A stretch of DNA of 64,000 bases, taken from an uncultured Rhodospirillaceae bacterium (GTDB lineage Bacteria > Pseudomonadota > Alphaproteobacteria > Rhodospirillales > Magnetospirillaceae). The stretch is from the NCBI GenBank assembly GCA_903901915.1, contig CAIUSV010000068.1, positions 1-64,000 of the forward strand, read 5' to 3'. The position numbers and the translations under genes are program-made. This document shows, piece by piece, positions 1,209-60,994 of the stretch. Under the pieces are notes generated by a model. It did no database searches. It was not told where the DNA came from and saw nothing but the letters and a program-made list of their open reading frames with translations. Positions within the stretch are counted from its first letter, which is position 1; the number at the start of each line of letters is the position of its first letter.

Positions 1209-2129
1209 ATGACGTCCCATCATCGCATCCTGGTCATCAAGCTGGGGGCACTGGGGGATTTCGTCCAGGCGTTCGGCCCGTTCGCCGCCATTCGCGCCCA
1301 CCACCAGCGGTCCCGCATCACCCTGCTGACGACCCGGCCGTTTGTCGCCATCGCCGAGGCGTCGCCATGGTTCGATACCGTCTGGGTGGACGAGCGCCCG
1401 CAGCTGTGGCGGCCGGACCGCATCTGGCGGCTGCGCCGGCGGCTGCGTGGCGGCGGCTTCGAGCGGGTCTACGACCTGCAAACCTCCGATCGCTCGTCGT
1501 GGTACTTCCGCCTGCTGGGGGGGGACGTCGAGTGGTCGGGGATCGCCTCGGGGTGCTCGCATCCCCACGCCAATCCCCGTCGCGACACCATGCACACCAT
1601 CGAACGCCAGCGCGAGCAACTGGCCATGGCGGGTATAGCCGAGGTGCCGACGCCCGATCTGTCGTGGGTTGGTGCCGACCTGGGTCGTTTTGCGCTGTCC
1701 GTCCCCTACGTCCTGTTGTGCCCGGGCGGCGCCTCCCACCGCCCGGCCAAGCGTTGGCCGGCGGAACGGTTCACCGCCATCGCCAACCGGCTGGCCGACA
1801 TGGGTATCACCCCGGTACTGCTGGGGAGCGGCGTCGAGACCGCCGCCGTCGCCGCCGGCTGTCCCCGCGCCATGGACATGGCGGGGCGGACCTCGTTCCT
1901 CGACATCATCGCCCTGGCCAGCGAGGCGGCGGCGGCGGTGGGCAACGATACCGGTCCGATGCATCTGATCGCCGCCGGTGGCTGTCCGTCGCTGGTGCTG
2001 TTCTCGCACGAGTCCGACCCGGCGCTGTGCGCTCCGCGCGGGCAGGTGACGGCTTTGCGGCGGCCCAGCCTGGCCGAATTGGGCGAGGCCGAGGTTGCGG
2101 CGGCACTGGACCGGGTGTTGGCACCGTGA
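1209..2129 (+). CDS. Glycosyltransferase family 9 (LPS heptosyltransferase-like)
   Basis: A 306-residue protein starting at the ATG just after the preceding stop. The N-terminal ILVIKLGALGDFVQ and the C-terminal GNDTGPMHLIAAGG are hallmarks of the ADP-heptose:LPS heptosyltransferase family, which moves heptose from ADP-heptose onto the lipid A/Kdo core at the inner membrane. The second half carries the GT-B donor-binding domain (VLLCPGGAS, then PAERFTAIA). An ADP-heptose epimerase (hldD) is encoded further along at 12040. Its stop overlaps the GTG start of the next gene, so the three genes probably form one operon. Which core position it modifies is unknown. Confidence 0.9.
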   Translation: MTSHHRILVIKLGALGDFVQAFGPFAAIRAHHQRSRITLLTTRPFVAIAEASPWFDTVWVDERPQLWRPDRIWRLRRRLRGGGFERVYDLQTSDRSSWYFRLLGGDVEWSGIASGCSHPHANPRRDTMHTIERQREQLAMAGIAEVPTPDLSWVGADLGRFALSVPYVLLCPGGASHRPAKRWPAERFTAIANRLADMGITPVLLGSGVETAAVAAGCPRAMDMAGRTSFLDIIALASEAAAAVGNDTGPMHLIAAGGCPSLVLFSHESDPALCAPRGQVTALRRPSLAELGEAEVAAALDRVLAP

Positions 2130-3034
2130 GCGATCCGTGGCGCGCAACCCGTCGGCGGATGGAAGAACGGCTGGTCGGCGAACGCCGCCGCCAGACCGCC
2201 AAAGGCGAGCGCGGAGTGCCGTTTCCCTTCCTGTTCACCCGGGCATTGCCCGCGGCGTTTCGCGTTTCCGGCTTGTACGGTTGGGGTCGGCGCAACGCCG
2301 GCGACATCCGAGTGTCCAAGGTCGATATCGTCAGCCCCCGCCTGTCGCCGGCATTCGACGGCTATACCATTTTGTTCCTGTCCGACCTGCACGCCGCCGC
2401 CGTGCCCGAGGTCATGGTCAAGGCCGCCGCCATGGCGGCTCATCTGACGTTCGATCTGGTGCTGCTGGGCGGCGACTATCAGTGCTTCGGGACTCCGTCG
2501 GCGACCGAAACCGGCGGATTGCTGGCGCCGCTGCTGGGGAAATTGCGGCCACCCGATGGAATCCACGGTGTGCTTGGCAATCATGACAGCCACGACATGG
2601 TCGAGGCGCTGGAAAGCCTCGGCGTGGATGTGCTGGTCAATCGCCATGTCACCGTCGAGCGCGGCGGCGAGCGTCTGGTGGTGGCGGGAACCGACGACAT
2701 TCACTGCTTCTACACCGACGCCGCCCTGGCTGCCCTGCGACAGGCGCCCCAGGGCTTTCGCATCGCCCTGATTCATAGCCCGGAACTGGCCGATCAAGCG
2801 GCCGGCCTTGGCTTTGACCTCTATCTCGCCGGGCATACCCACGGCGGCCAGATCTGCCTGCCGGGCGGACGTCCGGTGTTCACCGCCTTGGACAGTCATC
2901 ATGCCCTGGCGTGTGGTCACTGGCGCCACCATGGCATGGCGGGCTACACCAGCACCGGCCTCGGCAGCGGCCTGCCGGCGGTGCGGTTCAACTGTCGTCC
3001 CGAGCTGGTGCTGATCCGGTTGCGGCGGGGATAA
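2126..3034 (+). CDS. Calcineurin-like metallophosphoesterase (YaeI-like)
   Basis: A 302-residue protein read from a GTG overlapping the preceding stop (GTGA); an ATG at 2159 is an alternative. Metal-binding motifs of the calcineurin-like phosphoesterase fold appear in order: SDLHAAA, GGDY, GNHDSHD, and AGHTHGGQICLPG near the C-terminus. This matches the YaeI/YkuE-type subgroup, whose characterised members are dimetal phosphodiesterases. No clear signal peptide or membrane segment is seen. Co-transcription with two glycosyltransferases suggests a role in lipid or LPS metabolism, but the substrate is an inference. Confidence 0.85.
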   Translation: MSDPWRATRRRMEERLVGERRRQTAKGERGVPFPFLFTRALPAAFRVSGLYGWGRRNAGDIRVSKVDIVSPRLSPAFDGYTILFLSDLHAAAVPEVMVKAAAMAAHLTFDLVLLGGDYQCFGTPSATETGGLLAPLLGKLRPPDGIHGVLGNHDSHDMVEALESLGVDVLVNRHVTVERGGERLVVAGTDDIHCFYTDAALAALRQAPQGFRIALIHSPELADQAAGLGFDLYLAGHTHGGQICLPGGRPVFTALDSHHALACGHWRHHGMAGYTSTGLGSGLPAVRFNCRPELVLIRLRRG

Positions 3035-3085
3035 GGCGGATATAGTCTTTACCGGCGGAACCCCGACGCAATCAGGCGACATCCG

Positions 3086-4738
3086 ATGATGACGGACAAG
3101 GTGGCGCTGCCCAGACGTTCGATGGCGATCATCCTGGCCACCGCGCTGGCCATCGGGATGTTCTGGCTGGTGTCGGTGCGGGCCTATATCGATCTGCGCG
3201 ATACCCGGTTCGTCGAGGCGTCGGCCGATGCCCAAAAGGCACTTGCCGCCTTCGAGGAACATGCCAACCGGGTATTCGATTACGGCGACACCCATCTGCG
3301 TTCGATCCGCTCGTTCTATCTGGCCTACGGCCTGGGAGACGGTTTGCGGCGGCATGTGGCCGATATCCGCACTCCCGACGACGATCGCGTCGCCAGCGAG
3401 ATGTTCATCACCGACCGGGCCGGCCGCATGGTGTTTCATTCGATTCCCGCGGGAGTTGGACGAGATATTTCCGGGATCGACTATTTTTCCGCCATCCGCG
3501 CCGCGCCGGGGGACGACCTCTACATCGACCCCACCCGGGTGGGAATCGTCACCGGAAAATATGGCTTCAGGATCTTGCGCAAGATCATCCGCAACGGGGA
3601 GTTCGACGGCGTCATCGGAATGGTGCTGCCGCCGCAACACATGGCGGATTTCTACAAGGTGCTCGATCTCGGCCCCAACAGCTCGCTGCTGATGGTCAAG
3701 GAGGACCATCGCTATATCGTCCGCCAGCCGCTGCCTTCCGACGCCATCTACGGCAGGACCATGGACTCGCCTTCGTTGTGGGACAGTCTGCGCGACCGGC
3801 CCCGGGGGATCTACAGCAGCGTCAGCGTTGTCGATGGCGAGCACAGGATGTTCGGCTACAAGAAGCTGGACAATTATCCGGTGGTGATCGACGTCGGTGT
3901 CGCCGAGCGGGACATCATGGAAAACCTCAAGCCGGCCCGGCGCAACATGGTCATCCAGGGGGTGATCTTCACCGTGGTGGCGGTGTTGTTCTGCTGGCTG
4001 GTGCTGCTGATCCTGTCGCAGAACCGCAGCCTGACCGCCAAGAGCCGCCAGCTCGCCCTGTCCAACGCCGATCTGGAACGCTTTGCCTACGCCGCCTCCC
4101 ACGACCTGCAAACCCCGCTCAGGACCATCGGCAGCTACGCCCAGTTGTTGCACCGCCGCTACCGCGATCGTCTTGACGCCGATGCCGACGAGTTTCTCGG
4201 CTACATGGTGGAGGCGGCGCGGCATCTGTCGTCGCTGATCACCGACATGCTGGATTATGCCCGTGCCGGCAGTCCGGGACGGCCGCAGGCGCCGGTGGCG
4301 GCCGAGCGGGCCTTCGAGCGGGCGGTGGCCAACCTGCGGGCGGCGATCGACGAGACCGGCGCGGTGGTCACGGCAGGCGAGTTGCCCGTCCTGCTCGGTG
4401 ACGAGACCCAGGTGGTCAGCCTGTTCCAGAATCTGATCGAGAATGCCCTGAAGTATCGCCATCCCGAGCGGGTGCCCGAGATAAAGGTCAGCGCTTGGCC
4501 CATGTCGTCGCTGAGTTGGTGCTTTGCCGTCGAGGACAATGGTATCGGTATCGAAGAGAGCTACTTCGACAAGATCTTCGTCATTTTCCAGCGGCTACAG
4601 CCCGGCGGATCCGAGGGAACCGGCGTGGGTCTGGCTCTGTGCCAGCGCATCGTCCGCCGGCTGGGCGGTGACATCTGGGTCGAATCGACGCTGGGGCAGG
4701 GGACCACGTTCTACTTTACCGCGCCCCGGCAGGAGTAG
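3086..4738 (+). CDS. Membrane sensor histidine kinase with extracytoplasmic Cache-like domain
   Basis: A 550-residue kinase with a first transmembrane segment around residues 11-30, a periplasmic region of about 250 residues resembling a PDC/Cache sensor, and a second transmembrane segment around 290-312. The cytoplasmic part has an intact H-box (AASHDLQTPLRT), N-box (NLIENALKYR), G1 box (VEDNGIGIE) and G2 box (GTGVGLALC), so it should autophosphorylate. The H-box flanks (ERFAYAASHDLQ) match the cyanobacterial phytochrome-type HisKA subgroup. No response regulator is adjacent, so this is an orphan kinase. The ligand cannot be inferred. An ATG one codon downstream (3089) is equally possible as start. 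Confidence 0.88.
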   Translation: MMTDKVALPRRSMAIILATALAIGMFWLVSVRAYIDLRDTRFVEASADAQKALAAFEEHANRVFDYGDTHLRSIRSFYLAYGLGDGLRRHVADIRTPDDDRVASEMFITDRAGRMVFHSIPAGVGRDISGIDYFSAIRAAPGDDLYIDPTRVGIVTGKYGFRILRKIIRNGEFDGVIGMVLPPQHMADFYKVLDLGPNSSLLMVKEDHRYIVRQPLPSDAIYGRTMDSPSLWDSLRDRPRGIYSSVSVVDGEHRMFGYKKLDNYPVVIDVGVAERDIMENLKPARRNMVIQGVIFTVVAVLFCWLVLLILSQNRSLTAKSRQLALSNADLERFAYAASHDLQTPLRTIGSYAQLLHRRYRDRLDADADEFLGYMVEAARHLSSLITDMLDYARAGSPGRPQAPVAAERAFERAVANLRAAIDETGAVVTAGELPVLLGDETQVVSLFQNLIENALKYRHPERVPEIKVSAWPMSSLSWCFAVEDNGIGIEESYFDKIFVIFQRLQPGGSEGTGVGLALCQRIVRRLGGDIWVESTLGQGTTFYFTAPRQE

Positions 4739-4838
4739 GCGGGGCTTCGGTTTTCCGTCAGTCCGACATTCCGTCTGGCATCGATGGACCGACCGGCGCT
4801 AAAATCACCCGTTTTCCGGGTTAGGGAGGCTGGCGGGC

Positions 4839-6323
4839 ATGTCGATACTGCCGATCGTTCTGGATCGCGGCAGCGACAGTACGCTGCAGGACCAGATATT
4901 CGAGCAGATGCGCAAGCTGATCGTCGCTGGCCGGCTTCCGCCCCGGACCCGTATTCCGGCGTCGCGGCAGATGGCCAGCCAGCTTGGGGTATCGCGCAAT
5001 ACCGTGATGCTGGCCTATGAGCGTCTGGTGGCCGAGGGCTACCTCACCACCCGTCCCGCGGCTGGCAACTTCGTCGCCAACGCGTTGCCCGAAAGCGCCG
5101 AATCCGCCCGGCCGGCGATGACGGATTGGGCGCGCAGCCGCCTTGGTTCGGCTTTTCTGATCGGCCGTCCGACGCCGCGCCCTCCCCGTGCCGCGATCGA
5201 TTTCGGCTTGCGGTCGGCGGCCCATACCGAATTTCCCATCAAGGTGTGGCGGCGCAAGGTCGGGTTGCTGCTCGATCACCATGGCGATGCCCTGGGCAGT
5301 CCGCCGCCGCCGGGCGGCGAGCCCCGGCTGCGGCGCGCCGTGGCGAGCTGGTTGGCCGGCGACCGCGGCCCCATCTGCCATCCCGATGAGATCATCATCG
5401 TGTCGGGCTGCCAGCAGGCCTATAATTTGGCCGCCCATCTCTTCGTGCGGCCCGGTGATCGCGTCGTGGTCGAAGGCCCCGGCCATTCGGGGGCGGATAT
5501 GGCGTTTGCCGCCCGGGGCGCCGAACTGATTCGCGTTCCCGTGGACGAGCAGGGGTTGTGCGTCGAGTCTCTGCCGGATGGACCGGTGGCCCTGGCCTGC
5601 GTGACGCCTTCGCATCAGAATCCGGTGGGCGGCGTCCTGCCGCTGGACCGCCGCCGCCAGCTGATCGAGTGGGCCAGACGGGCGGGGGCCTGCATCTTTG
5701 AAGACGACTGCAACGGCGAGAAGGCGCTGTGTTGGGATGGCGCCCCCCTTCCCTCGCTCAAGGCTCTCGATCTCCACGGCCAAGTGGTCTATGCCGGCAC
5801 CTTCACCAAGACCCTGGGGGCGGGGTTGCGCCTGGGCTATGTGGTGGTGCCGGCCGAATTCGTTTCCGTCACGCTCGACCTCAAGGACATGTTCGACGGC
5901 GGTAATCCCTGGCTGGAGCAGATGGCCCTGGCCAGCCTGATCGAAAGCGGCGGCTTCGATCGCCATCTCGACGACCTCGCGCGGCGGTGGCTGCCCCGAC
6001 GCGATTGCCTGATCGCCGAGCTGCGGCGTGCCTTCGGGACCGCCGCCGTCACCGGCGCCGATGCCGGTACCCACCTGGCCTGGACCCTGCCGCCCGAGGC
6101 GCCCGATGCGGCTGTGGTTGCCGCCGCCGCTGCCGCCGAGGGCATCGGCGTCTCCGCCCTGGCCGGCGATCTGTCGCAGGCCGGAGTGCCTGCCCGGTTC
6201 GTCGATCGTACTCTTTACCTCAACTATTCGTCATTGACCGAGGATGCCATTGCCCGCGGAATCCGTGGCTTGGCCACGATCATCAACCGAATGTCGGCGA
6301 CGACAGCCCTCGCCGTGGGCTGA
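4839..6323 (+). CDS. MocR/PdxR-type GntR regulator with aminotransferase domain
   Basis: A 494-residue fusion. Residues about 1-80 form a GntR winged helix-turn-helix (LQDQIFEQMRKLIVAG, then SRQMASQLGVSRNTV). Residues about 120-490 form a fold-type I aminotransferase domain with the PLP lysine in GTFTKTLGAGLRLG and the substrate-binding segment TPSHQNPVGG. Such MocR regulators use PLP or amino-acid-PLP adducts as effectors; PdxR members activate PLP synthesis. No pdxST, gabT or ehuABC-like target lies beside it, so the regulon is unknown. It stands alone, with its own 100-bp upstream region. Confidence 0.88.
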   Translation: MSILPIVLDRGSDSTLQDQIFEQMRKLIVAGRLPPRTRIPASRQMASQLGVSRNTVMLAYERLVAEGYLTTRPAAGNFVANALPESAESARPAMTDWARSRLGSAFLIGRPTPRPPRAAIDFGLRSAAHTEFPIKVWRRKVGLLLDHHGDALGSPPPPGGEPRLRRAVASWLAGDRGPICHPDEIIIVSGCQQAYNLAAHLFVRPGDRVVVEGPGHSGADMAFAARGAELIRVPVDEQGLCVESLPDGPVALACVTPSHQNPVGGVLPLDRRRQLIEWARRAGACIFEDDCNGEKALCWDGAPLPSLKALDLHGQVVYAGTFTKTLGAGLRLGYVVVPAEFVSVTLDLKDMFDGGNPWLEQMALASLIESGGFDRHLDDLARRWLPRRDCLIAELRRAFGTAAVTGADAGTHLAWTLPPEAPDAAVVAAAAAAEGIGVSALAGDLSQAGVPARFVDRTLYLNYSSLTEDAIARGIRGLATIINRMSATTALAVG

Positions 6324-6369
6324 AACTCCTTACCCCATGGTATAATTTTCCGCCGATCACCGTGACGCG

Positions 6370-6395
6370 TTAGTCTGTTCTTATAATAAGACTAA
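6370..6395. promoter_or_regulatory. Inverted repeat, possible operator upstream of the cytochrome cluster
   Basis: TTAGTCT at 6370-6376 and its exact complement AGACTAA at 6389-6395 enclose a 12-bp AT-rich spacer. A second, nested dyad (CTTAT-A-ATAAG) lies at 6380-6390. The region is unusually AT-rich for this genome. It could be an operator for the adjacent MocR-type regulator or for the downstream cytochrome genes; no regulator can be assigned. Confidence 0.35.
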
Positions 6396-6450
6396 TGCCA
6401 CGAAGCCCCGCCAACGCCATGAAGCCCGCCATTGTGGCTGAAATGCCACA
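6396..6450. repeat. Imperfect direct repeat and a 6-bp inverted repeat in the intergenic region
   Basis: ATGCCACGAAGCCCCGCC (from 6395) is followed by ACGCCATGAAGCCCGCC (from 6414), an imperfect direct repeat. A perfect dyad, TGTGGC at 6433-6438 with GCCACA at 6445-6450, comes next. The 371-bp gap from 6324 to 6694 contains no plausible gene; besides these elements it holds the structured leader at 6553-6636. Confidence 0.35.
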
Positions 6451-6552
6451 CTGATCCTGGACTCACTCATAATTCGGCAATTGGCTCTAACAATGGCCTC
6501 CCAACTTCCGTATTATCCCGCCCCAAGGTGTAGGTGGTTTCTGCGGGGAATT

Positions 6553-6636
6553 GCGGGAGCCGCCAACCGTTTAGGTTTGGAGCGCGCGTGTCCGGGCGAT
6601 TGCCGCCCGTGGCTTGTCCTGGCGGCTCCTTTCCGC
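6553..6636 (+). promoter_or_regulatory. Predicted structured 5' leader of the cytochrome operon
   Basis: GGAGCCGCCA at 6556-6565 pairs perfectly with TGGCGGCTCC at 6620-6629. A short outer extension pairs GCG at 6553-6555 with CGC at 6634-6636. Nested inside is a second perfect stem (6593-6598 with 6604-6609, loop ATTGC). The element ends about 60 nt before the ATG at 6695. It could be a regulatory mRNA leader or a separate small RNA; the structure is seen, the function is inferred. Confidence 0.4.
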
Positions 6637-6694
6637 ATTGGGGGGTCCGGCCTTGGGGTCGGGCAGTAACGGTCTGGCTTGGAGTGGCCCGAAG

Positions 6695-7279
6695 ATGTTC
6701 GCGTTTTGCAAAACCTTCTATCGCAGCAATACGACGCTGGTGTGGTCGGCGATCGTTTCGTTCTTCGCCGGCATCATCTTCTGGGGCGCTTTCAACACCC
6801 TGATGGAAGCCACCAATACGCTGATGTTCTGCACGACCTGCCACGAGATGGAATCCACCGTGTACCCCGAGTACATGGAGACGGTGCACTACAAGAACCG
6901 CAGCGGCGTGCGCGCGGTCTGCTCCGACTGTCACGTTCCTCATCCGTGGTTCTACAAGATCAAGCGCAAGATCGAAGCCAGCTCCGAGGTTTATCACAAG
7001 CTGATGGGCACCGTGGACACGGTCGAGAAGTTCGACGCCCATCGCCTGGAGATGGCCAAGCGCCAGTGGGCGGTGATGAAGTCCACCGACTCCCGCGAGT
7101 GCCGCAACTGCCACAGCTTCGAGGCCATGTCGCAGGCGGCGCAGAAGAAGAGTTCTTGGCAGATGCACCAGGACGCGCAGAAAAGCGGCGAGACCTGCAT
7201 CGACTGCCACAAGGGCATCGCCCACAAGCCGGTCCACAAGCAGCTCGAGGCGCCGCCGGCCAACCAGAGCTTTGAATAG
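6695..7279 (+). CDS. NapC/NirT-family tetraheme c-type cytochrome (CymA-like quinol dehydrogenase)
   Basis: A 194-residue protein with one N-terminal membrane anchor (about residues 13-33) and four CXXCH heme sites: CTTCH (46-50), CSDCH (76-80), CRNCH (136-140) and CIDCH (168-172). This length and architecture match NapC/NirT/CymA proteins, which oxidise menaquinol or ubiquinol at the periplasmic face of the inner membrane and pass electrons to soluble cytochromes. It heads a cluster with a ten-heme MtrA-like cytochrome and an outer-membrane barrel, so CymA-like service to that conduit is likely. No nap genes are nearby. The ATG at 6695 puts the anchor directly at the N-terminus. Confidence 0.92.
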   Translation: MFAFCKTFYRSNTTLVWSAIVSFFAGIIFWGAFNTLMEATNTLMFCTTCHEMESTVYPEYMETVHYKNRSGVRAVCSDCHVPHPWFYKIKRKIEASSEVYHKLMGTVDTVEKFDAHRLEMAKRQWAVMKSTDSRECRNCHSFEAMSQAAQKKSSWQMHQDAQKSGETCIDCHKGIAHKPVHKQLEAPPANQSFE

Positions 7280-7311
7280 ATCGCCCGTTATTAGGCACGA
7301 GGGAGGTTACC

Positions 7312-8241
7312 TTGAAGATTTCCACCGTTTCCCTGGCCATGCTGGCCGCCGTTTCCGCCACCCCCGCGCTCGCCGTCGATTGGGCGAGCGTGCCGGGCAA
7401 GGAAGTGGTTCTGTTCTATCCGGGGCAGTCGTCGCGGGAATGGACCATGACCGAGGGCGAGCATGACGGTGCCGCCAAGTACAAGGGCGGCAAGAACTGC
7501 TCCGATTGCCATATCGGCGAAGAGAAGAAGAAGGGCGATCGCGTCGTCGCCGGCAAGACCAACGAACCCACCCCCATCGCCGGCAAGCCGGGCTGGGTGG
7601 CGGCGACGGTCAAGACCGCCCATGACGACAAGAACTTCTATGTCCATCTCGACTTCAACGAGGGCACCCAGCCCGACTCCAAGATGGACGCGGCCTTCGC
7701 CACCAAGGTGACGATGATGGTTTCCGACGGCGCCGCCGCCGAGTCGGTTCGCAACGGGTGCTGGAGCACCTGCCACGACGACAACAGCAAGATGGCCAGC
7801 GCCGGCGCCGCCGAGCGCACCAAGTACCTGGGCAAGACCCGCGCCAAGCAGACCCGCCAGGGCGGCGGCGACGAGCTGAAGCCCGCCGAGGAATTGGCCA
7901 AGATGAAGGCCGCCGGCGAGTATCTCGAGTTCTGGCAGGCCAAGCTCAATCCGGGTGCCAAGGCCGTGGCCGACTCGTTCATCGTGTTCGACAAGCGTGA
8001 CGAAGTGAAGCCCAACGCCGTCACCGCCGAGGGTACCTTGGCCAATGGCGCGGGTTCCGTCACCCTGTCGCGGCCGCTGTCGGCGGGCGCGCCCTATAAG
8101 GATCTCGTCGCGGGCAAGACCTATACCGTGGGCTTCGCCATCCACGGCGGTCATACCGCCAAGAGGTTCCATTACGTTTCCTTCGCGCACACGCTTGTGC
8201 TCGATTCCGGTGCCGCCGATCTCGTGGCGGTGAAGAAGTAA
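7312..8241 (+). CDS. Ethylbenzene-dehydrogenase-related heme-binding periplasmic protein
   Basis: A 309-residue exported protein (signal peptide about 1-21, ALA cleavage motif) starting with TTG, chosen because a strong GAGGGAGG ribosome site precedes it by about 6 nt. The fold resembles the cytochrome c-552/DMSO-reductase-family gamma-subunit heme-binding domain (ethylbenzene dehydrogenase family): KNFYVHLDFNEG and a C-terminal TYTVGFAIHGGH segment. It carries one canonical site, CSDCH (63-67), and one unusual CWSTCH (150-155), a CX3CH. Catalytic molybdenum subunits that normally accompany such gamma subunits are absent. Its place between the NapC-like and decaheme genes suggests an electron-transfer intermediate or periplasmic redox partner. 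Confidence 0.8.
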   Translation: MKISTVSLAMLAAVSATPALAVDWASVPGKEVVLFYPGQSSREWTMTEGEHDGAAKYKGGKNCSDCHIGEEKKKGDRVVAGKTNEPTPIAGKPGWVAATVKTAHDDKNFYVHLDFNEGTQPDSKMDAAFATKVTMMVSDGAAAESVRNGCWSTCHDDNSKMASAGAAERTKYLGKTRAKQTRQGGGDELKPAEELAKMKAAGEYLEFWQAKLNPGAKAVADSFIVFDKRDEVKPNAVTAEGTLANGAGSVTLSRPLSAGAPYKDLVAGKTYTVGFAIHGGHTAKRFHYVSFAHTLVLDSGAADLVAVKK

Positions 8242-8261
8242 ACCAGGCTCCATTCTTGGAA

Positions 8262-8291
8262 GCTCCGTCGGCGGGGGATCGTCGGCGGAGC
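8262..8291 (+). other. Strong intergenic hairpin inside the cytochrome operon
   Basis: GCTCCGTCGGCG (8262-8273) pairs along all 12 positions, with two G-U wobbles, with CGTCGGCGGAGC (8280-8291) around a GGGGAT loop. No T-run follows, so it is more likely an mRNA-stabilising or processing structure than a terminator. It lies 17 nt before the decaheme start codon. Confidence 0.5.
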
Positions 8292-8308
8292 GAACGGGGG
8301 TAACAAAT

Positions 8309-9313
8309 ATGTTTGCACGACGACTGCTTAAGGCGCTCCTGTGCGTGGGCGTCCTCATGGTGGCCTCCACGGTTGCCATGGCTGCGGATGACTCCGCCAC
8401 GCCGACCGCCACCACCCTGGCGGCCGCCGACGGTTCCTCTCCCGACGCCTTCCCGGTGTACGCGGAGAAGGGGGCGGCGACCTGCCTCAAATGTCACGAT
8501 ACCGGCGCTGCCGCCGGCATCCTCCGCACCGCTCACGCGGTAAAGGGCGACTCGCGGACTCCGTTCGCGCAGCACGCTTGCGAATCCTGCCACGGCGCCA
8601 GCCCGCAGCACGTCGACAGCCACCCCGCCAAGGGTGAGAAGCGCGCGTCGCCGACGGTGGTGTTCAAGGGCGACCGCATCTCGTCGGCCGAGGCGCGTAA
8701 CGGCGTCTGCCTGACCTGCCATGAAAGCGGCGTCCGGATGAACTGGAAGGGCAGCCAGCACTCGAACAGCGAAGTCGCCTGCACCGATTGCCACTCGCTC
8801 CACGCCGAGAAGGATGTGGTCCGGGACAAGCGGACCCAGCCCCAGACCTGCTTCAACTGCCATGCCGAGCAGCGGGCCGACAGCTATCAGCTGTCCCATC
8901 ACCCGATCCGCGAAGGCAAGGTGGTGTGCTCGGATTGCCACAATCCGCACGGTTCGCCCGCTCCGAAGATGCTCAAGGAAGTTCGCGTCACCGACACCTG
9001 CTACAACTGCCATGCCGACAAGCGCGGGCCGTTCCTGTGGGAACACCAGCCGGTTCGCGAGGACTGCACCTATTGCCACAATCCGCACGGATCGATCAAC
9101 GCGCGGTTGCTGAAGGACAAGATGCCCTGGCTGTGCTCCGATTGCCACGGCAACAACAACATGGGCGGCGATGCCACCACCCACTCCGTCACTGCTGCGG
9201 GCGGCGCCTGGGCCAATGGCTTCTATTCCCGAGTTCAGGACCGGTCCTGCACCAACTGCCACTTCCAGATCCATGGTTCCAACAACCCGAGTGGCTCGGC
9301 CTTCCTGCGCTGA
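8309..9313 (+). CDS. DmsE/MtrA-family decaheme c-type cytochrome
   Basis: A 334-residue periplasmic cytochrome with a signal peptide (about 1-25, AMA cleavage) and ten CXXCH motifs, the first near residue 59 and the last near 314. Length and heme count match MtrA/DmsE/PioA-type cytochromes, which sit inside an outer-membrane MtrB barrel and conduct electrons across the outer membrane. The regular spacing of the hemes and histidines between them fits bis-His ligation throughout. The gene lies directly before the matching MtrB/PioB barrel gene. Whether current flows outward (metal or extracellular acceptor reduction) or inward (Fe(II) oxidation) cannot be read from the protein. Confidence 0.95.
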   Translation: MFARRLLKALLCVGVLMVASTVAMAADDSATPTATTLAAADGSSPDAFPVYAEKGAATCLKCHDTGAAAGILRTAHAVKGDSRTPFAQHACESCHGASPQHVDSHPAKGEKRASPTVVFKGDRISSAEARNGVCLTCHESGVRMNWKGSQHSNSEVACTDCHSLHAEKDVVRDKRTQPQTCFNCHAEQRADSYQLSHHPIREGKVVCSDCHNPHGSPAPKMLKEVRVTDTCYNCHADKRGPFLWEHQPVREDCTYCHNPHGSINARLLKDKMPWLCSDCHGNNNMGGDATTHSVTAAGGAWANGFYSRVQDRSCTNCHFQIHGSNNPSGSAFLR

Positions 9314-9346
9314 TCCTGCGGACCTAAGCAAACTTGAGGTGTGATA

Positions 9347-11530
9347 ATGTTCACGCGAAACGCACAAAAAGCCGCTCTGCTGGCTAGTGTTTGCCTGGTG
9401 CCGCTGTCGGCGGCCATGGCAGGTGACTTCGACGATGCCGCCCCGGCCGCCGCGGCGGCGGGGACCCCGGTCTACAACAACGAGGTCGAGATCGGCCTGC
9501 GCGTTCAAAGCGCAGGGTCGGCGGTGTTCGGCCGCTACAACGGCAGTCCCTATGCCGGCGTCTCGGTGCTGGGCGGCTGGTCCGCCCGTAATCGCGACGA
9601 TGTCTTCTATTACCAGACCTATGGTCGCGACCTTGACTTCGGCCGCGCCATCGCCCCCAACTCGACGGTCGGCCTGAAGGTCGGCGAGCAGGGGAGCTGG
9701 GGGCTGTCGGCGAGCTACGACGCCATCTCGTACACTCAGTCTCTCGACTATCAGAGCCTGTTCAACAGCAATGGCACCTTCGCCAACGGCGGCCCCGGCA
9801 CCACCTACGCCTCGGCCGCCGCCGCCTACCGGACGCTCGCCCCGGGCATCCTCTCGGCGGTGCAGAAGTTCGAGGTCGGGACCCGGCGCGACACCGGCGA
9901 GGTCGCCGGCGATTTGCGCTTCAACGACTGGCTGATCAGCACGTCGTTCTCGCACGAGCACAAAAGCGGCACCGTCGGGCAGTCGATCGATATCTCGACC
10001 AACATGGCCTTCCTGGCGCCGGTCGATTACGATACCGACCGCTACCGGGCGACCTTGGCCTATAACGGCGAAAAGCTTCAGGGCAAGCTGACCTACAGCC
10101 TGTCCAGCTTCCGCGACAACCTCACTTCCATCAGGCTGGACAGCCCGGTGCAGACCGCAGGTGTCGCCAACGCGGCCAACGTCGTCTTGCCGCCCAGCAA
10201 CATCGCCCATAACCTCAATGGCCAGATGGCCTACAATCTTACCGACAAGACCCGGCTCAACCTGAACATGGATTACGGCGTCCAGATTCAGAACGCGGTC
10301 ATTCAGCCGGAAGACTGGAGCCAGCAAACCCAGCGGTTCTATTCCGGCGATCCGCAGACCCTGAACGGCGTGGTGCAGACCATCTTCACCAATGCCTCCA
10401 TCGTCACCCAGCCGATGAAGGACGTTAATCTGCGGACGTCCTATACCCTGGACATGCGCGAAGGCAACCGGGCGCACTACCACATCCGCCAGGGCGAGAT
10501 GGGGACCTCGGCGGGGTGGATCCGTGACGCCCTCACCCAGTCCTACATCAAGAACACCGCTCTGATCGAGGCCGGGTACCGTATCCTGCCGTCGACCAAG
10601 CTGACCCTGGGTTATGTCGTCACCGACATGCAGCGTACCAACGCCCAGGTCGGCGAGACCCTGGAAAACCGGGCGACGGCCAAGGTTCGCACCACCGCCA
10701 TACCCGGCGTGACCACAAGCCTGGGCTACGAGCACGCGGTGCGGACGGTGTCGGACGTCGACGAGTCCCGTCCGTGGAAGGGGCTCAATAATAGCGGTGA
10801 CTGCCAAACCGCGAGTGCCACCCAAAACGGCACCTACTGCTTGGGTATCGCCAGTTACCAGGCCGCCCGGACCCAGGACGTCGTTCCGCTTCGTCTGTCC
10901 ACCAGCCTCGGTGACGACGCCACCCTGGGCCTGAACAGCAAGTTCACCGCCAACAACTACCCGGGCCAGACCTTTGGCGTGAGGCGGGAATACATGGTGT
11001 CGAGCGGTCCCGACGTGAGCTATCGCGTTACCGAAGGCCTCGACGCCCACACGTTCTACACCTTCCAGCGCAGCTACCGCTCCATGGCCATGAGCAAGGG
11101 GTCGGAAGTCGCCAATCCGCAGACGACGATTGGCCTTAACTGGAGCGAGGCCACCACCATCGACACCAGCACGTTCGGCCTCGGCGCGACGTGGAAGCCG
11201 TCGAACGAGTGGAAGTTCGGCTTCGACTATCTGTTCAACTTCGGCAACGAAGGTGTGTTCGTCTCGCTGCCGGGTAAGGGCTTCTCCGGCGAGGAATGGC
11301 GCGTCGATACCATGAACAACTCGGTCAAGGTCTTTGGCGAGTACGAGTTCGTGCCGGGCGCCTCGCTCAATCTCGCCTACAACTACGATCGTCTGGTCAC
11401 CGACGACCCGTTCGCTTGGGGCAGCCCGTTCTACGGCACTGCGGGCACCTCGGGCGCGCTTCTGACGGGCCAGGGCAATGCCGCCTATAACGTACACACG
11501 GTCATGAGCCGCGTGTCCTATAAGTGGTAG
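9347..11530 (+). CDS. MtrB/PioB-family outer-membrane beta-barrel (decaheme-associated)
   Basis: A 727-residue protein with a signal peptide (about 1-26, AMA-GDF) and a long series of alternating amphipathic strands ending in an aromatic residue (SYKW), as in outer-membrane barrels. Size and placement after a decaheme cytochrome identify the MtrB/PioB family, which forms the sheath around MtrA. GTG-ATA-ATG precedes the coding region; the ATG at 9347 was chosen because TGAGGT lies about 7 nt upstream. The CXXC motif near the N-terminus of Shewanella MtrB is absent; the only two cysteines of the mature part lie in one loop (GDCQTA and TYCLG). A strong terminator follows. Confidence 0.9.
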   Translation: MFTRNAQKAALLASVCLVPLSAAMAGDFDDAAPAAAAAGTPVYNNEVEIGLRVQSAGSAVFGRYNGSPYAGVSVLGGWSARNRDDVFYYQTYGRDLDFGRAIAPNSTVGLKVGEQGSWGLSASYDAISYTQSLDYQSLFNSNGTFANGGPGTTYASAAAAYRTLAPGILSAVQKFEVGTRRDTGEVAGDLRFNDWLISTSFSHEHKSGTVGQSIDISTNMAFLAPVDYDTDRYRATLAYNGEKLQGKLTYSLSSFRDNLTSIRLDSPVQTAGVANAANVVLPPSNIAHNLNGQMAYNLTDKTRLNLNMDYGVQIQNAVIQPEDWSQQTQRFYSGDPQTLNGVVQTIFTNASIVTQPMKDVNLRTSYTLDMREGNRAHYHIRQGEMGTSAGWIRDALTQSYIKNTALIEAGYRILPSTKLTLGYVVTDMQRTNAQVGETLENRATAKVRTTAIPGVTTSLGYEHAVRTVSDVDESRPWKGLNNSGDCQTASATQNGTYCLGIASYQAARTQDVVPLRLSTSLGDDATLGLNSKFTANNYPGQTFGVRREYMVSSGPDVSYRVTEGLDAHTFYTFQRSYRSMAMSKGSEVANPQTTIGLNWSEATTIDTSTFGLGATWKPSNEWKFGFDYLFNFGNEGVFVSLPGKGFSGEEWRVDTMNNSVKVFGEYEFVPGASLNLAYNYDRLVTDDPFAWGSPFYGTAGTSGALLTGQGNAAYNVHTVMSRVSYKW

Positions 11531-11549
11531 TGGTCTAGGTACTCCATGC

Positions 11550-11586
11550 GCGGCGGCCCCCACCCCGGGGCCGCCGCCTTTTTTTT
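11550..11586 (+). terminator. Rho-independent terminator after the MtrB-like gene
   Basis: An 11-bp perfect GC stem (11550-11560 with 11567-11577), loop CACCCC, is followed by C and eight T. It ends only 19 nt before the next ATG, so the NrfJ-like gene is either reached by partial read-through or has its own promoter within this gap. Confidence 0.92.
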
Positions 11587-11604
11587 GCGAGGAACACACA
11601 AAAA

Positions 11605-11949
11605 ATGCTGCGATCAACCCTTTTGGCCGCCGTCTTCGCACTGGCTGCCGCGACCGCGTCGGCCGCCGATCTGCCCGCTGAACATCCGCCGCTTCCGCCC
11701 CGCGCCGCGCCGGTGCCGACCCACTCGGGCACGGTGTCCGAGGCGTTTCCCGCCGGAGCCTACATTTATCTCCATGTCAACGGCGACGGCGGCGACGAGT
11801 GGATAGCCGGCCCCAGCGCCGACATCAAGGCCGGTGCCAAGGTGCGCTGGAACGACGGCTCGGTGATGACCAATTGGCAGGCCAGGGCGCTCAACCGGAC
11901 GCTCGAAAAGGTCCGTCTGGTCGAGGTGTTGGAGGTCGTGCGGAAATAG
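11605..11949 (+). CDS. Small periplasmic NrfJ-like protein
   Basis: A 114-residue exported protein (signal peptide about 1-20, ASA cleavage). The mature part has the pattern of the NrfJ-like family found beside multiheme cytochrome genes: GTVSEAFPAGAYIYLHVN, then WIAGPSADIKAGAKV, then a C-terminal MTNWQARALNRTLEKVRLV resembling the family's M-x-N-F-x-S-x-x-LNRTF ending. Family members are thought to assist multiheme cytochrome systems, but their function is unproven. Linkage to the NapC-decaheme-barrel genes supports a shared role. Family assignment is from motif memory, not from a database search. Confidence 0.65.
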   Translation: MLRSTLLAAVFALAAATASAADLPAEHPPLPPRAAPVPTHSGTVSEAFPAGAYIYLHVNGDGGDEWIAGPSADIKAGAKVRWNDGSVMTNWQARALNRTLEKVRLVEVLEVVRK

Positions 11950-11981
11950 CGCCGTCCTCCGAGCCGCGCGGTTCCCCCGGC

Positions 11982-12010
11982 TTGCCGGGGGCGGCCGGGC
12001 GGCCTATAAG
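11982..12010 (+). promoter_or_regulatory. Candidate sigma-70-type promoter for hldD
   Basis: TTGCCG (11982-11987) and TATAAG (12005-12010) are separated by 17 bp and lie 30 nt before the hldD ATG. The -35 overlaps a perfect 8-bp hairpin (CCCCGGC-TT-GCCGGGG) that could also end the preceding transcript. Confidence 0.5.
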
Positions 12011-12039
12011 GGGTTCGGATTGAATTTACGGAGCGTGCG

Positions 12040-13026
12040 ATGATTCTCGTCACCGGCGGGGCCGGCTTCATCGGGTCCAACATCCTGGCGGCGCTGGAGG
12101 AGAAGGGCGCCGGCAAGCTGGTGGTGTGCGACCGCCTGCGTTCCAACGACAAATGGCGCAACCTCGCCAAGCGCGAGCTTGCCGACATCGTCCATCCCGA
12201 GCAGCTGTTCGACTTTCTCGAAGCCAACCGCAAGAACATGGAGGTGGTGTTCCATATGGGCGCCATCTCGTCCACCACCGAGACCGACGCCGACAAGATC
12301 CTGGCCAACAACTTTTCGCTGTCGCTGGCGTTGTGGAAGTGGTGTGCCGTCAACGACGTGCGCTTCATCTACGCGTCGTCGGCGGCGACTTACGGCGACG
12401 GCGCCCATGGCTTCGATGACGATGGATCGGTGGACCATCTGGCGCGGCTGCGCCCGTTGAACGCCTATGGCTGGTCCAAGCATCTGTTCGACCGCCGGGT
12501 GGCGCGCAAGATCGCCTCGGGGGCACGGCGGCCGCCGCAATGGGCGGGCCTGAAATTCTTCAACGTCTACGGCCCCAACGAGTACCACAAGGGCGGACAG
12601 CAAAGCGTGGTGGCGCAGATCTATCCCCACGCCGAGAAGGATGCCGCCTATCAGCTGTTCAAGTCGCACAACCCCAAATACGGCGACGGCGGCCAGTTGC
12701 GTGACTTCATCTGGGTCGATGACGTGGTCGATGTGATGATGTGGCTGCTGGAGCATCGCCACGTCAACGGCCTGTTCAACGTCGGTACCGGTCAGGCGCG
12801 CTCGTTCCTCGATCTGGCGTCCGCCGTCTATCGGGCGGTGGGGCGCGAACCCAACATCAAGTACCGCGACACTCCGGTCGAGATCCGCGACAAGTACCAG
12901 TACTTCACCCAGGCCGAGATGGGCCGGCTGCGCCAGGCCGGCTATGCCAAGCCGTTCACCTCGCTGGAGGACGGTGTCGGAACCTATGTGAAGCGTTACC
13001 TCGCCGCCGCCGATCCGTTCCGCTGA
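12040..13026 (+). CDS. hldD: ADP-L-glycero-D-manno-heptose 6-epimerase
   Basis: A 328-residue extended short-chain dehydrogenase with the NADP-binding TGGAGFIGSN motif at the N-terminus and the catalytic YGWSK (Tyr-x3-Lys) near residue 143. GLKFFNVYGPNE and GQLRDFIWVDDV are characteristic of HldD/RfaD. The enzyme epimerises ADP-D-glycero-D-manno-heptose at C6 to make the LPS inner-core heptose donor, presumably used by the GT9 enzyme encoded at 1209. It has its own candidate promoter and its stop overlaps the lgt start. Confidence 0.95.
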   Translation: MILVTGGAGFIGSNILAALEEKGAGKLVVCDRLRSNDKWRNLAKRELADIVHPEQLFDFLEANRKNMEVVFHMGAISSTTETDADKILANNFSLSLALWKWCAVNDVRFIYASSAATYGDGAHGFDDDGSVDHLARLRPLNAYGWSKHLFDRRVARKIASGARRPPQWAGLKFFNVYGPNEYHKGGQQSVVAQIYPHAEKDAAYQLFKSHNPKYGDGGQLRDFIWVDDVVDVMMWLLEHRHVNGLFNVGTGQARSFLDLASAVYRAVGREPNIKYRDTPVEIRDKYQYFTQAEMGRLRQAGYAKPFTSLEDGVGTYVKRYLAAADPFR

Positions 13027-59492: not shown

Positions 59493-60938
59493 CTACTTGT
59501 CCGGCCCGGCGAACAGGGTGGCGGTGCGCACGGTGCGGCCGTTGCCCTCCAGCACGAAGCTGATCGGCAGGGTCTTGCCGGAAAGGATGGCGGCCGGGGC
59601 GGTGACGTAAAGGCGAAACTCGCCGACGCTGTCGCGCGGCACCGCCAGATCGGCGCTGGCAACCCGGGCTTCGCCGCCGACCACGTCCAAGGTGGCGCCG
59701 TCCAGGCCTTCCAGGCGGAGGGTGAAGGCGCGGTCCTCGGCCTTCATGTTCAGCACCCTGACCTCATAGCCGTTGCGGATGCCGCCGTCGGACATCTGGA
59801 CGAACAGCGGCGCTCGCTCGTGCAGGACGTTGAGGTCGATGTCGGGACGCGACACCAGGCGCACCAGCATGACGGTGCCGACCACGGCGATGATGCCGGC
59901 ATAAAACAGTGTGCGCGGCCGGATGACGTGGAAACCGGTGGGCTTGCCCTGTCCGCGCGCCTCGATGTTGGCACTGGAATCATAGGAAATAAGTCCGCGC
60001 GGCAGGCCGAAGCGATCCATCACCGCGGCGCAGGCGTCGATGCACAGGGCGCAGCCGATACAGGCCAACTGGTTGCCGCCGCGAATGTCGATGCCGGTGG
60101 GGCAGGCCTGGACGCAGGCGCGACAATCGACGCAATGGCCGCGGCCCTCGAAGCTCTGGTCCTTGCGCGCGGTTCCGCGCGGCTCGCCGCGCCAACTCTC
60201 GTAGGTGACGATCAGCGAATGCTCGTCGAACATGGCCGACTGGAAGCGGGAATAGGGGCAGAGATAGACACAGACCCGCTCGCGGGCGTAGCCGGCCAGC
60301 AGGAAGCAGAAGCCGCCGATGACGAAGATGAAGACATAGGTCGCCAGCGGCGCGTTGCCGGCGAAGATGTCGCGCAGCCCCTCGAAGGCGTCGCCGAACC
60401 ATAGGGTGAAGCAGATGCCGCAGGCGGCCGAGATTACCAGCCACAACAGGTTGACCAGCGCCAGCCGGGCGACCTTGCCGGCCGACAACGGCGCCCGCGC
60501 GAAGGCCAGACGCTTGGTCCGGCCGCCGATCACCAGGCGCTCGACCTGGACGAACAGGTCGGTATAGACCGTCTGCCAGCACAGGAAGCCGCACCAGACC
60601 CGCCCGGCCACCGCGCTCATCAGGAACAGGAAGATCGCCGCCATCAGCAGGATGCCGGTCAGGTAGTAGACCTCCTGCGGCCAGATTTCGATGAACAGGA
60701 AATAGGCCCGCCGGCCCGGCATGTCGATCAGGATGGCCTGGTCGGGCGCCCCCGGACCGCGATCCCAGCGCAGGAACGGCGCCAGATGCCACCACCCCAG
60801 GGTCGCGACCATCGCCCACCATTTCAGCGAACGAAAACGGCCGTGAACCGAGCGGGGATAGGCCTTGCCGGTTTCCATGTAAAGGGGAACCTCGCCCTTG
60901 TGCAGGGGAAGCACGGCGCCGGAAGCGCGATTGTCCAT
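59493..60938 (-). CDS. ccoG: Cytochrome oxidase assembly protein CcoG (FixG/RdxA)
   Basis: A 481-residue protein with about five membrane segments, two [4Fe-4S] clusters (CVDCRACVQACPTGID and CIGCALCIDACAAVMD) and a C-terminal periplasmic Ig-like domain. CcoG is a copper-reducing assembly factor for cbb3-type oxidase. The second cluster ends CA instead of the common CP, which leaves all four cysteines intact. The ATG at 60938 has GAGG at correct spacing; a second ATG at 60944 touches it. The ccoNOQP and ccoHIS genes are not beside it, and no FNR box (TTGAT-N4-ATCAA) precedes it. Confidence 0.93.
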   Translation of the reverse strand: MDNRASGAVLPLHKGEVPLYMETGKAYPRSVHGRFRSLKWWAMVATLGWWHLAPFLRWDRGPGAPDQAILIDMPGRRAYFLFIEIWPQEVYYLTGILLMAAIFLFLMSAVAGRVWCGFLCWQTVYTDLFVQVERLVIGGRTKRLAFARAPLSAGKVARLALVNLLWLVISAACGICFTLWFGDAFEGLRDIFAGNAPLATYVFIFVIGGFCFLLAGYARERVCVYLCPYSRFQSAMFDEHSLIVTYESWRGEPRGTARKDQSFEGRGHCVDCRACVQACPTGIDIRGGNQLACIGCALCIDACAAVMDRFGLPRGLISYDSSANIEARGQGKPTGFHVIRPRTLFYAGIIAVVGTVMLVRLVSRPDIDLNVLHERAPLFVQMSDGGIRNGYEVRVLNMKAEDRAFTLRLEGLDGATLDVVGGEARVASADLAVPRDSVGEFRLYVTAPAAILSGKTLPISFVLEGNGRTVRTATLFAGPDK

Positions 60939-60994
60939 GGCCATCCTCGCTCTTATATTAGAGGAGAACTATATTCTGAACCAACCACGATGTC

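Follow-up and report, generated by a model that had tools for sequence, protein, structure and literature searches.

Here we describe a cluster of cytochrome genes in a 64,000-nucleotide stretch of DNA (the window) from an uncultured Rhodospirillaceae bacterium (GenBank assembly GCA_903901915.1, contig CAIUSV010000068.1). We consider it likely that four of these genes form an operon that joins a NirT-NirB-type inner-membrane and periplasmic module to an MtrAB-type outer-membrane conduit, under the predicted control of a MocR regulator encoded just upstream. The probable task of the operon is electron transfer between respiratory chain and cell exterior.

Gene content of the cluster

Five genes lie on the forward strand, in the order NapC/NirT-type tetraheme cytochrome, EB_dh-domain protein, decaheme cytochrome, outer-membrane barrel and small secreted protein (Table 1). 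The initial annotation of this DNA, made from the sequence alone, had listed the same genes in this order. Pfam and NCBIfam confirmed the order for the first four, and an open reading frame (ORF) is present at the fifth position; the MocR gene and its predicted operator had been left out of the list. The longest ORF of the tetraheme gene runs from 6614, yet the membrane anchor suits the ATG at 6695, where the start had originally been placed. The decaheme and barrel genes are adjacent, and both products score above their NCBIfam cut-offs (DmsE family, 304 bits against 192; MtrB/PioB family, 275 bits against 240), as in an MtrAB/PioAB conduit. Gaps of 32, 67 and 27 bp separate the first four genes. 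Because a terminator-like hairpin separates the barrel gene from the fifth gene, the firm unit is that of four genes (NapC, c-552, decaheme and barrel). Terminator-like matches were overall not above those in shuffled sequence (6 against a mean of 4.7), and the stem of this hairpin is the longest of the six.

The 4.1 Mb genome has one match each to EB_dh, MtrB and NapC, and no match to the MtrC/MtrF domain (PF22113). The earlier suggestion is supported in so far as it saw here a conduit of variant type across the envelope, equipped with an additional heme carrier and lacking an MtrC- or PioC-like neighbour.

The EB_dh protein as a NirB-type cytochrome c-552

Judged by its motifs and the surroundings of its relatives, the EB_dh protein fits best among the NirB-type diheme cytochromes c-552, the partners of NirT. 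It carries two c-type heme motifs, CX2CH (C63-H67) and CX3CH (C150-H155), and both were kept in 77 of the 77 relatives that passed filters for length and score. Neither motif occurs in L147 and L152, which are weak, partial matches in genomes further removed. The NirT-NirB pair has long been known. In the available text of two accounts, NirT is taken to supply electrons to the diheme NirB (PMC8954225), and both a nirS-nirT-nirB layout and fused NirTB forms exist (PMC13086519). The NirB-type reading was reached because relatives of the window protein show this layout or a NapC/NirT fusion behind nirS. Loci L136 and L138 have the order nirS-NapC-EB_dh, and their EB_dh proteins are 32-33% identical to that of the window (139-141 bits); gene order and motifs suggest that these third genes are NirB. 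Fusions to NapC behind nirS were found in Azospirillum brasilense Sp7 and Ruegeria sp. B32. The window EB_dh gene begins directly downstream of NapC, as expected for a NirT partner, and NapC is upstream of or fused to EB_dh at 51 of 88 places, a set found mostly with the window protein as query and not an unbiased sample. It weighs against this assignment that it was made from nirSTB-type relatives, Pseudomonas stutzeri NirB not being in the comparison. No nirS was found among the genes of the cluster or the scanned neighbours, to which this search was confined.

A tree of 90 EB_dh rows separated 23 conduit-linked from 33 nir-linked rows by a branch with 99% support in the Shimodaira-Hasegawa-like approximate likelihood ratio test (SH-aLRT); this was a quick tree with SH-aLRT support only, in which L140 forms a long branch. 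Since the two groups lie across this branch, the sequence evidence places the window c-552 in a sister subfamily and not within NirB proper. The conduit-linked proteins as one exclusive clade were rejected, as the 23 rows need 10 label changes and are mixed with solo copies. The odd "gamma-subunit" protein of the cluster would thereby be explained: a sister lineage of a denitrification carrier has become part of outer-membrane conduits, and therefore more than one terminal system seems to be served by a single type of NapC-carrier module. The likeness to nirSTBM of Pseudomonas and Stutzerimonas lies in the tetraheme NapC/NirT followed by a diheme cytochrome, sometimes fused. The difference is that NirT-NirB is there thought to serve the cytochrome cd1 nitrite reductase and not an outer-membrane conduit (PMC13086519, PMC8954225, as far as their available text goes).

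Proposed electron path and comparison with known conduits

Gene identities, heme motifs, the conserved order, the conserved repeat described below and the terminator-like site are read from the sequence itself, and from these we infer localisation and the electron path. The NapC/NirT tetraheme would be in electron exchange with the quinone pool, the c-552, a soluble NirB-like diheme protein of EB_dh fold, would ferry electrons across the periplasm, and the decaheme within the MtrB/PioB barrel would pass them through the outer membrane to an extracellular partner. The MocR regulator would control the operon through a two-box direct-repeat operator, within a wider regulon for extracellular electron transfer in related genomes. 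The most likely path would run from quinol to NapC, c-552, the decaheme in the barrel and the outside.

Inward flow, in which Fe(II) or another extracellular donor would feed c-552, then NapC and the quinone pool in the manner of Mto or Pio, is possible and in our judgement less likely than not. NapC/NirT proteins are mainly known as quinol dehydrogenases, which counts against it. The genome lacks MtrC and encodes a RuBisCO large subunit, which would fit uptake, although RuBisCO alone is no proof of growth on Fe(II). MtoAB and PioAB homologues do serve uptake (available parts of PMC10654088 and PMC8805035), whereas the published relative of the present cluster comes from a goethite-reducing culture (PMC6933298, likewise in part). 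Moreover, no MtoD- or PioC-like carrier gene is found in the cluster, the only part of the genome searched for one; the cluster genes match other families.

That relative, from a metagenome-assembled genome (MAG) of Telmatospirillum, is also an alphaproteobacterium in which diheme c-552, decaheme MtrA and MtrB follow in order and no MtrC was found, a likeness known to us by description only (PMC6933298). In contrast to the window, its NirT lies elsewhere, in a nitrate operon, and its c-552 is read as extracellular. The available text of that account mentions no MocR, operator or fifth gene. In several Proteobacteria cymA, a gene of the same NapC type, lies beside mtrAB or mtoAB, next to decaheme and barrel, and the accessible part of that account mentions no EB_dh-type diheme (PMC6295460). 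The Mto system of Sideroxydans (MtoABD-CymA) likewise combines a CymA-type tetraheme with decaheme and barrel, but has the small carrier MtoD in place of the EB_dh-fold diheme (PMC10654088, from the text available). MtrCAB differs by its outer-surface cytochrome MtrC, the window genome having no PF22113 match; none of the cluster genes codes for a surface cytochrome.

Thus far, then, what had been published, in the portions available, is the order c-552-MtrA-MtrB (PMC6933298) and cymA beside mtrAB (PMC6295460). For the full order NapC-c-552-MtrA-MtrB, as for the MocR link, our literature search, with thin coverage of subscription papers, found no account. New, as far as that search goes, are the full four-gene operon, the sister relation of its c-552 to nir-linked NirB, and the link to MocR and its operator.

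A MocR regulator and a predicted direct-repeat operator

Both domains of the MocR protein are above the Pfam cut-offs (GntR 53.8 bits, Aminotran_1_2 72.2 bits), and a MocR relative lies upstream of NapC in other conduit loci. Across 12 such MocR-NapC gaps a direct repeat of the form TGGNNY-N18-TGGNNCTA was spotted by eye. A pattern scan found it in 10 of the 12, that is, in 10/10 with a conduit and 0/2 with NapC-EB_dh alone. The boxes are spaced 24 bp apart in nine conduit gaps and 25 bp in L038. Shuffling of the same 12 gaps where the repeat had been discovered gave a mean of 0.01 matches and a maximum of 1 (1000 rounds). A stricter pattern applied to 1.45 Mb (92 loci, the 12 discovery gaps included) gave 16 matches at spacing 24 and 7 at 29 other spacings together; one of the 16 (L053) lies away from any conduit promoter.

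Among 55 genomes of the family a tighter pattern had 26 matches in 16 genomes. At 18 of the 26 an electron-transfer gene starts 77-358 bp downstream on the same strand: a decaheme (7), NapC-EB_dh (3), EB_dh (1), a NarI-like gene (5) or a heptaheme gene (2). Seven of these 18 had been seen in an earlier scan, and among the 19 new matches 11 precede electron-transfer genes, which makes this a partly independent test of the repeat. We did not count L167 and L171, where a NapC-type match lies about 0.5 kb downstream but the letters read, by eye, as heme-motif codons; the remaining six uncounted matches have no electron-transfer match downstream. In three of the 55 genomes (G050, G052 and G054) the repeat occurs together with MtrB and without EB_dh.

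Besides the reuse of the discovery gaps and the partial independence of the family scan, several observations weigh against the operator. In the window's own genome a looser pattern has 2 matches (one of them here) and the backward control 10; the 26 family matches are likewise rarer than those of the backward control. With its weaker second box (TTGG...CTAAC), the window copy does not satisfy the tight pattern. A MocR gene was found near 3 of the 18 sites (G049, G006 and G007), the other genomes not having been searched for it. The signal of the repeat is its position, not its frequency. Binding of MocR to the repeat at 6457-6491 is accordingly a prediction from position and conservation, and this operon and its counterparts in related bacteria may be under MocR control.

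Such a role has partial precedents, in the available text of the papers concerned. The direct repeats bound by TauR, a MocR regulator of taurine use, read CTGGACYTAA, and cytochromes are named among the members of MocR regulons (PMC5320631); MpaR, a likely member of the subfamily, governs a terminal oxidase subunit in Pseudomonas (PMC10790758). TauR thus shares the use of direct repeats, but it serves taurine use and not electron-transfer genes, with which the boxes 24 bp apart are associated here. We infer from gene neighbourhoods that the window MocR or an orthologue controls an extracellular-electron-transfer regulon. A literature search for "MocR" together with "extracellular electron transfer" found only the paper on the cyanide-responsive Pseudomonas oxidase regulator (PMC10790758), which, in the text available, names extracellular electron transfer only in a cited title.

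That the MocR gene and the repeat belong to the metabolism of pyridoxal or amines, and are neighbours of the conduit only by accident, is rather unlikely. NCBIfam does name the regulator PdxR-like (PLP_TF_PdxR, 359 bits, cut-off 320), and the known MocR regulons mostly concern the metabolism of pyridoxal phosphate (PLP), gamma-aminobutyric acid, taurine and ectoine (PMC5320631, available part). However, the 18 family matches noted above precede conduit, NarI-like/Fe-S or heptaheme genes, and some such matches occur in genomes with MtrB but without EB_dh. We lean, somewhat cautiously, towards a broader role, in which a PLP-dependent MocR would act throughout this bacterial family as master switch for extracellular electron transfer. 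With a single conserved direct-repeat operator it would govern porin-cytochrome conduits, heptaheme cytochromes and two alternative quinone modules, one of NirT-NirB type and the other NarI-like/Fe-S/NrfD. If this is true, an amine or vitamin-B6 signal would be tied to electron exchange with the outside. In bacteria without MtrC, the repeat also offers an easy means of searching for extracellular-electron-transfer genes.

Two further elements were noted in the same intergenic region. A sigma-70-like promoter match has a first hexamer that overlaps the second operator box; such matches are no commoner than chance (1 found, shuffle mean 1.1). A short inverted repeat, TTAGTCT...AGACTAA (6370-6395), was seen by eye between the regulator gene and the predicted operator.

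Location and fold of the c-552

The comparison points to a c-552 that is a periplasmic carrier and not an extracellular reductase, because the c-552 domain is fused to NapC in nir clusters and because the N-terminus resembles, by eye, a plain signal peptide in which a loose lipobox pattern is absent. The NapC fusion would place the c-552 domain beside the inner-membrane quinol dehydrogenase. For Telmatospirillum the c-552 was instead proposed to be the extracellular terminal reductase, in place of MtrC, from a localisation predictor (BUSCA) and the likeness of c-552-mtrA-mtrB to mtrCAB (PMC6933298, available text). This would agree with the absence of an MtrC-domain protein from the window genome, and the loose lipobox pattern does occur in 4 of the 31 EB_dh rows aligned; both the published prediction and these four rows weigh against a periplasmic location. 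Nevertheless, with relatives fused to inner-membrane NapC or placed in nitrite-reductase clusters, and with NapC directly upstream of a window protein that has no lipobox, we regard the extracellular position as unlikely for the present protein. The periplasmic-carrier reading offers a testable alternative to the published idea of an outer reductase.

A structure model of the c-552, built without hemes (mean predicted local distance difference test score, pLDDT, 80), had as its best fold in the PDB the ethylbenzene dehydrogenase gamma subunit EbdC (Foldseek E 3.7e-9, template modelling scores 0.43/0.60), with NXR-C second and then carbohydrate-binding modules (E 1.8e-5 to 4.6e-5). A sequence profile retrieved EbdC and NXR-C remotely as well (E 7.6e-7 and 3e-6). 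These two proteins share the fold class of the c-552 but are parts of molybdenum enzymes, and EbdC holds a noncovalent heme b (PMC10654088, available part), as against the c-type motifs of the window protein. The initial annotation had taken the EB_dh protein for an orphan gamma subunit foreign to such gene sets; this was rejected, as the gamma-subunit family models fail (heme-b subunit family TIGR03477, 21.5 bits against a cut-off of 169.85; EbdC model, 15.7 against 400, both NCBIfam) and c-heme motifs are present, and the NirB/c-552 type is, in part, already published within a conduit order. It is very improbable that the protein serves as gamma subunit to a type II molybdenum enzyme that has its genes elsewhere and uses the conduit: the fold and five Molybdopterin-family frames in the genome would allow it, but all five are on other contigs and none on the window's contig (C68), no molybdenum alpha or Fe-S beta gene was found among the scanned genes (1367-13023), and the two c-type motifs, the failed heme-b model and the 51 places with NapC speak against it.

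Distribution of the carrier and the conduit

At 17 of the 88 EB_dh places, the window included, NapC precedes and a decaheme follows EB_dh; a further 7 have the decaheme without NapC, so that a decaheme is directly downstream in 24. A conduit barrel lies elsewhere on the fetched stretch at 7 places (4 with NapC, 3 without), NapC is the only neighbour of this kind at 6, and 32 belong to nir clusters, where 24 follow NapC or are fused to it and 8 are second copies. The remaining 19 have neither NapC nor conduit nearby, which tells against a dedicated role in this operon; the protein therefore has other partners too. The recurrence of the same gene order across genomes (17/88) is more than chance, and the NapC-EB_dh-decaheme loci occur in MAGs labelled Alpha- and Gammaproteobacteria, among others. 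Among the 55 family genomes the EB_dh carrier is present in 36 and MtrB in 17. For the phylum, 53 of 398 genomes gave some EB_dh match, whatever its kind, and 36 gave MtrB above cut-off. The initial annotation had asked whether the heme-binding gene always travels with the conduit. The answer is mixed: an invariable link was rejected, since 4 of the 17 MtrB genomes in the family lack the carrier; the frequent decaheme directly downstream is the part that held. The carrier is a module common to several systems, the conduit being one.

The divergences of the four proteins run parallel (r 0.86-0.96) in 15 of the 17 four-gene loci, L034 not being included and L083 being dropped where its contig ends inside the decaheme. 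This could also come from species history alone.

Variant neighbourhoods were seen at several loci. A cytochrome b561-type gene takes the place of NapC beside carrier and conduit in L044, L049 and L059 (the family was scanned on a relative, L055). In these three and L045 the conduit is followed by two conserved genes, which resemble a DUF1800/DUF1501 pair. Locus L084 (1970-5100) has a NarI-like triheme protein, an Fe-S protein and NrfD near EB_dh and conduit, with the direct repeat upstream and NapC absent, and NarI-like relatives come after the direct repeat at four further places. In L090 (5892-8759) a tetraheme protein and a related Fe-S protein follow EB_dh. In L092, L095 and L100 EB_dh adjoins a gene resembling alcohol dehydrogenases dependent on pyrroloquinoline quinone (scanned in L100) and a small monoheme protein, a setting that possibly points to another partner of the same carrier. 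In L077 (G039:C1:3259077-3260001), in one relative of the same genus, the EB_dh gene upstream of the decaheme and barrel is hit as two segments that differ in frame, and the second segment holds a TGA.

Heme I of the window NapC is CTTCHEM, the canonical CX2CHxM. In 14 of 52 NapC-type proteins of the fetched loci CX3CHxM takes its place, 13 of them in EB_dh loci outside nir clusters (L032-L037, L041, L060, L091, L093, L094, L098 and L099) and one in the nir locus L143; of the rest, 37 have CX2CHxM and one has neither.

Feature coordinates, fifth gene and other observations

Table 1. Features of the cluster, in window coordinates.
Feature	Position	Strand	Basis
MocR-subfamily regulator, GntR helix-turn-helix and aminotransferase-like (PLP) domain	4839..6323	+	Pfam, NCBIfam
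Predicted MocR operator, direct boxes CTGG and TTGG, 24 bp apart	6457..6491 (pattern match 6457-6489)	+	Pattern scan
Sigma-70-like promoter match	6487..6516	+	9 of 12 positions
NapC/NirT/CymA-type tetraheme quinol dehydrogenase, N-terminal membrane anchor	6695..7279	+	Cytochrom_NNT 1.1e-70 (Pfam); 4 CX2CH
Putative NirB-type diheme cytochrome c-552, EB_dh fold	7312..8241	+	EB_dh 7.3e-31 (Pfam); two c-heme motifs
DmsE/MtrA-family decaheme cytochrome	8309..9313	+	10 CX2CH; Paired_CXXCH_1 2e-39 (Pfam)
MtrB/PioB-family outer-membrane barrel	9341..11530	+	MtrB_PioB 1.8e-87 (Pfam)
Intrinsic-terminator-like hairpin, between barrel and fifth gene	11550..11586	+	11 G-C pairs and 8-T run
Small secreted protein, family unassigned by Pfam/NCBIfam	11605..11949	+	Relatives in L098/L099 near MocR and conduit

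The fifth protein matched no NCBIfam family, and Pfam gave one match below cut-off (TOBE_2, E 0.057); its earlier label as NrfJ-like was confirmed by neither database. Its structure model (pLDDT 54) was too poor and was not used. A relative 41% identical adjoins MocR and the conduit in L098. Away from the cluster, the window encodes a FixG/CcoG-like 4Fe-4S membrane protein at 59496-60944 on the reverse strand.

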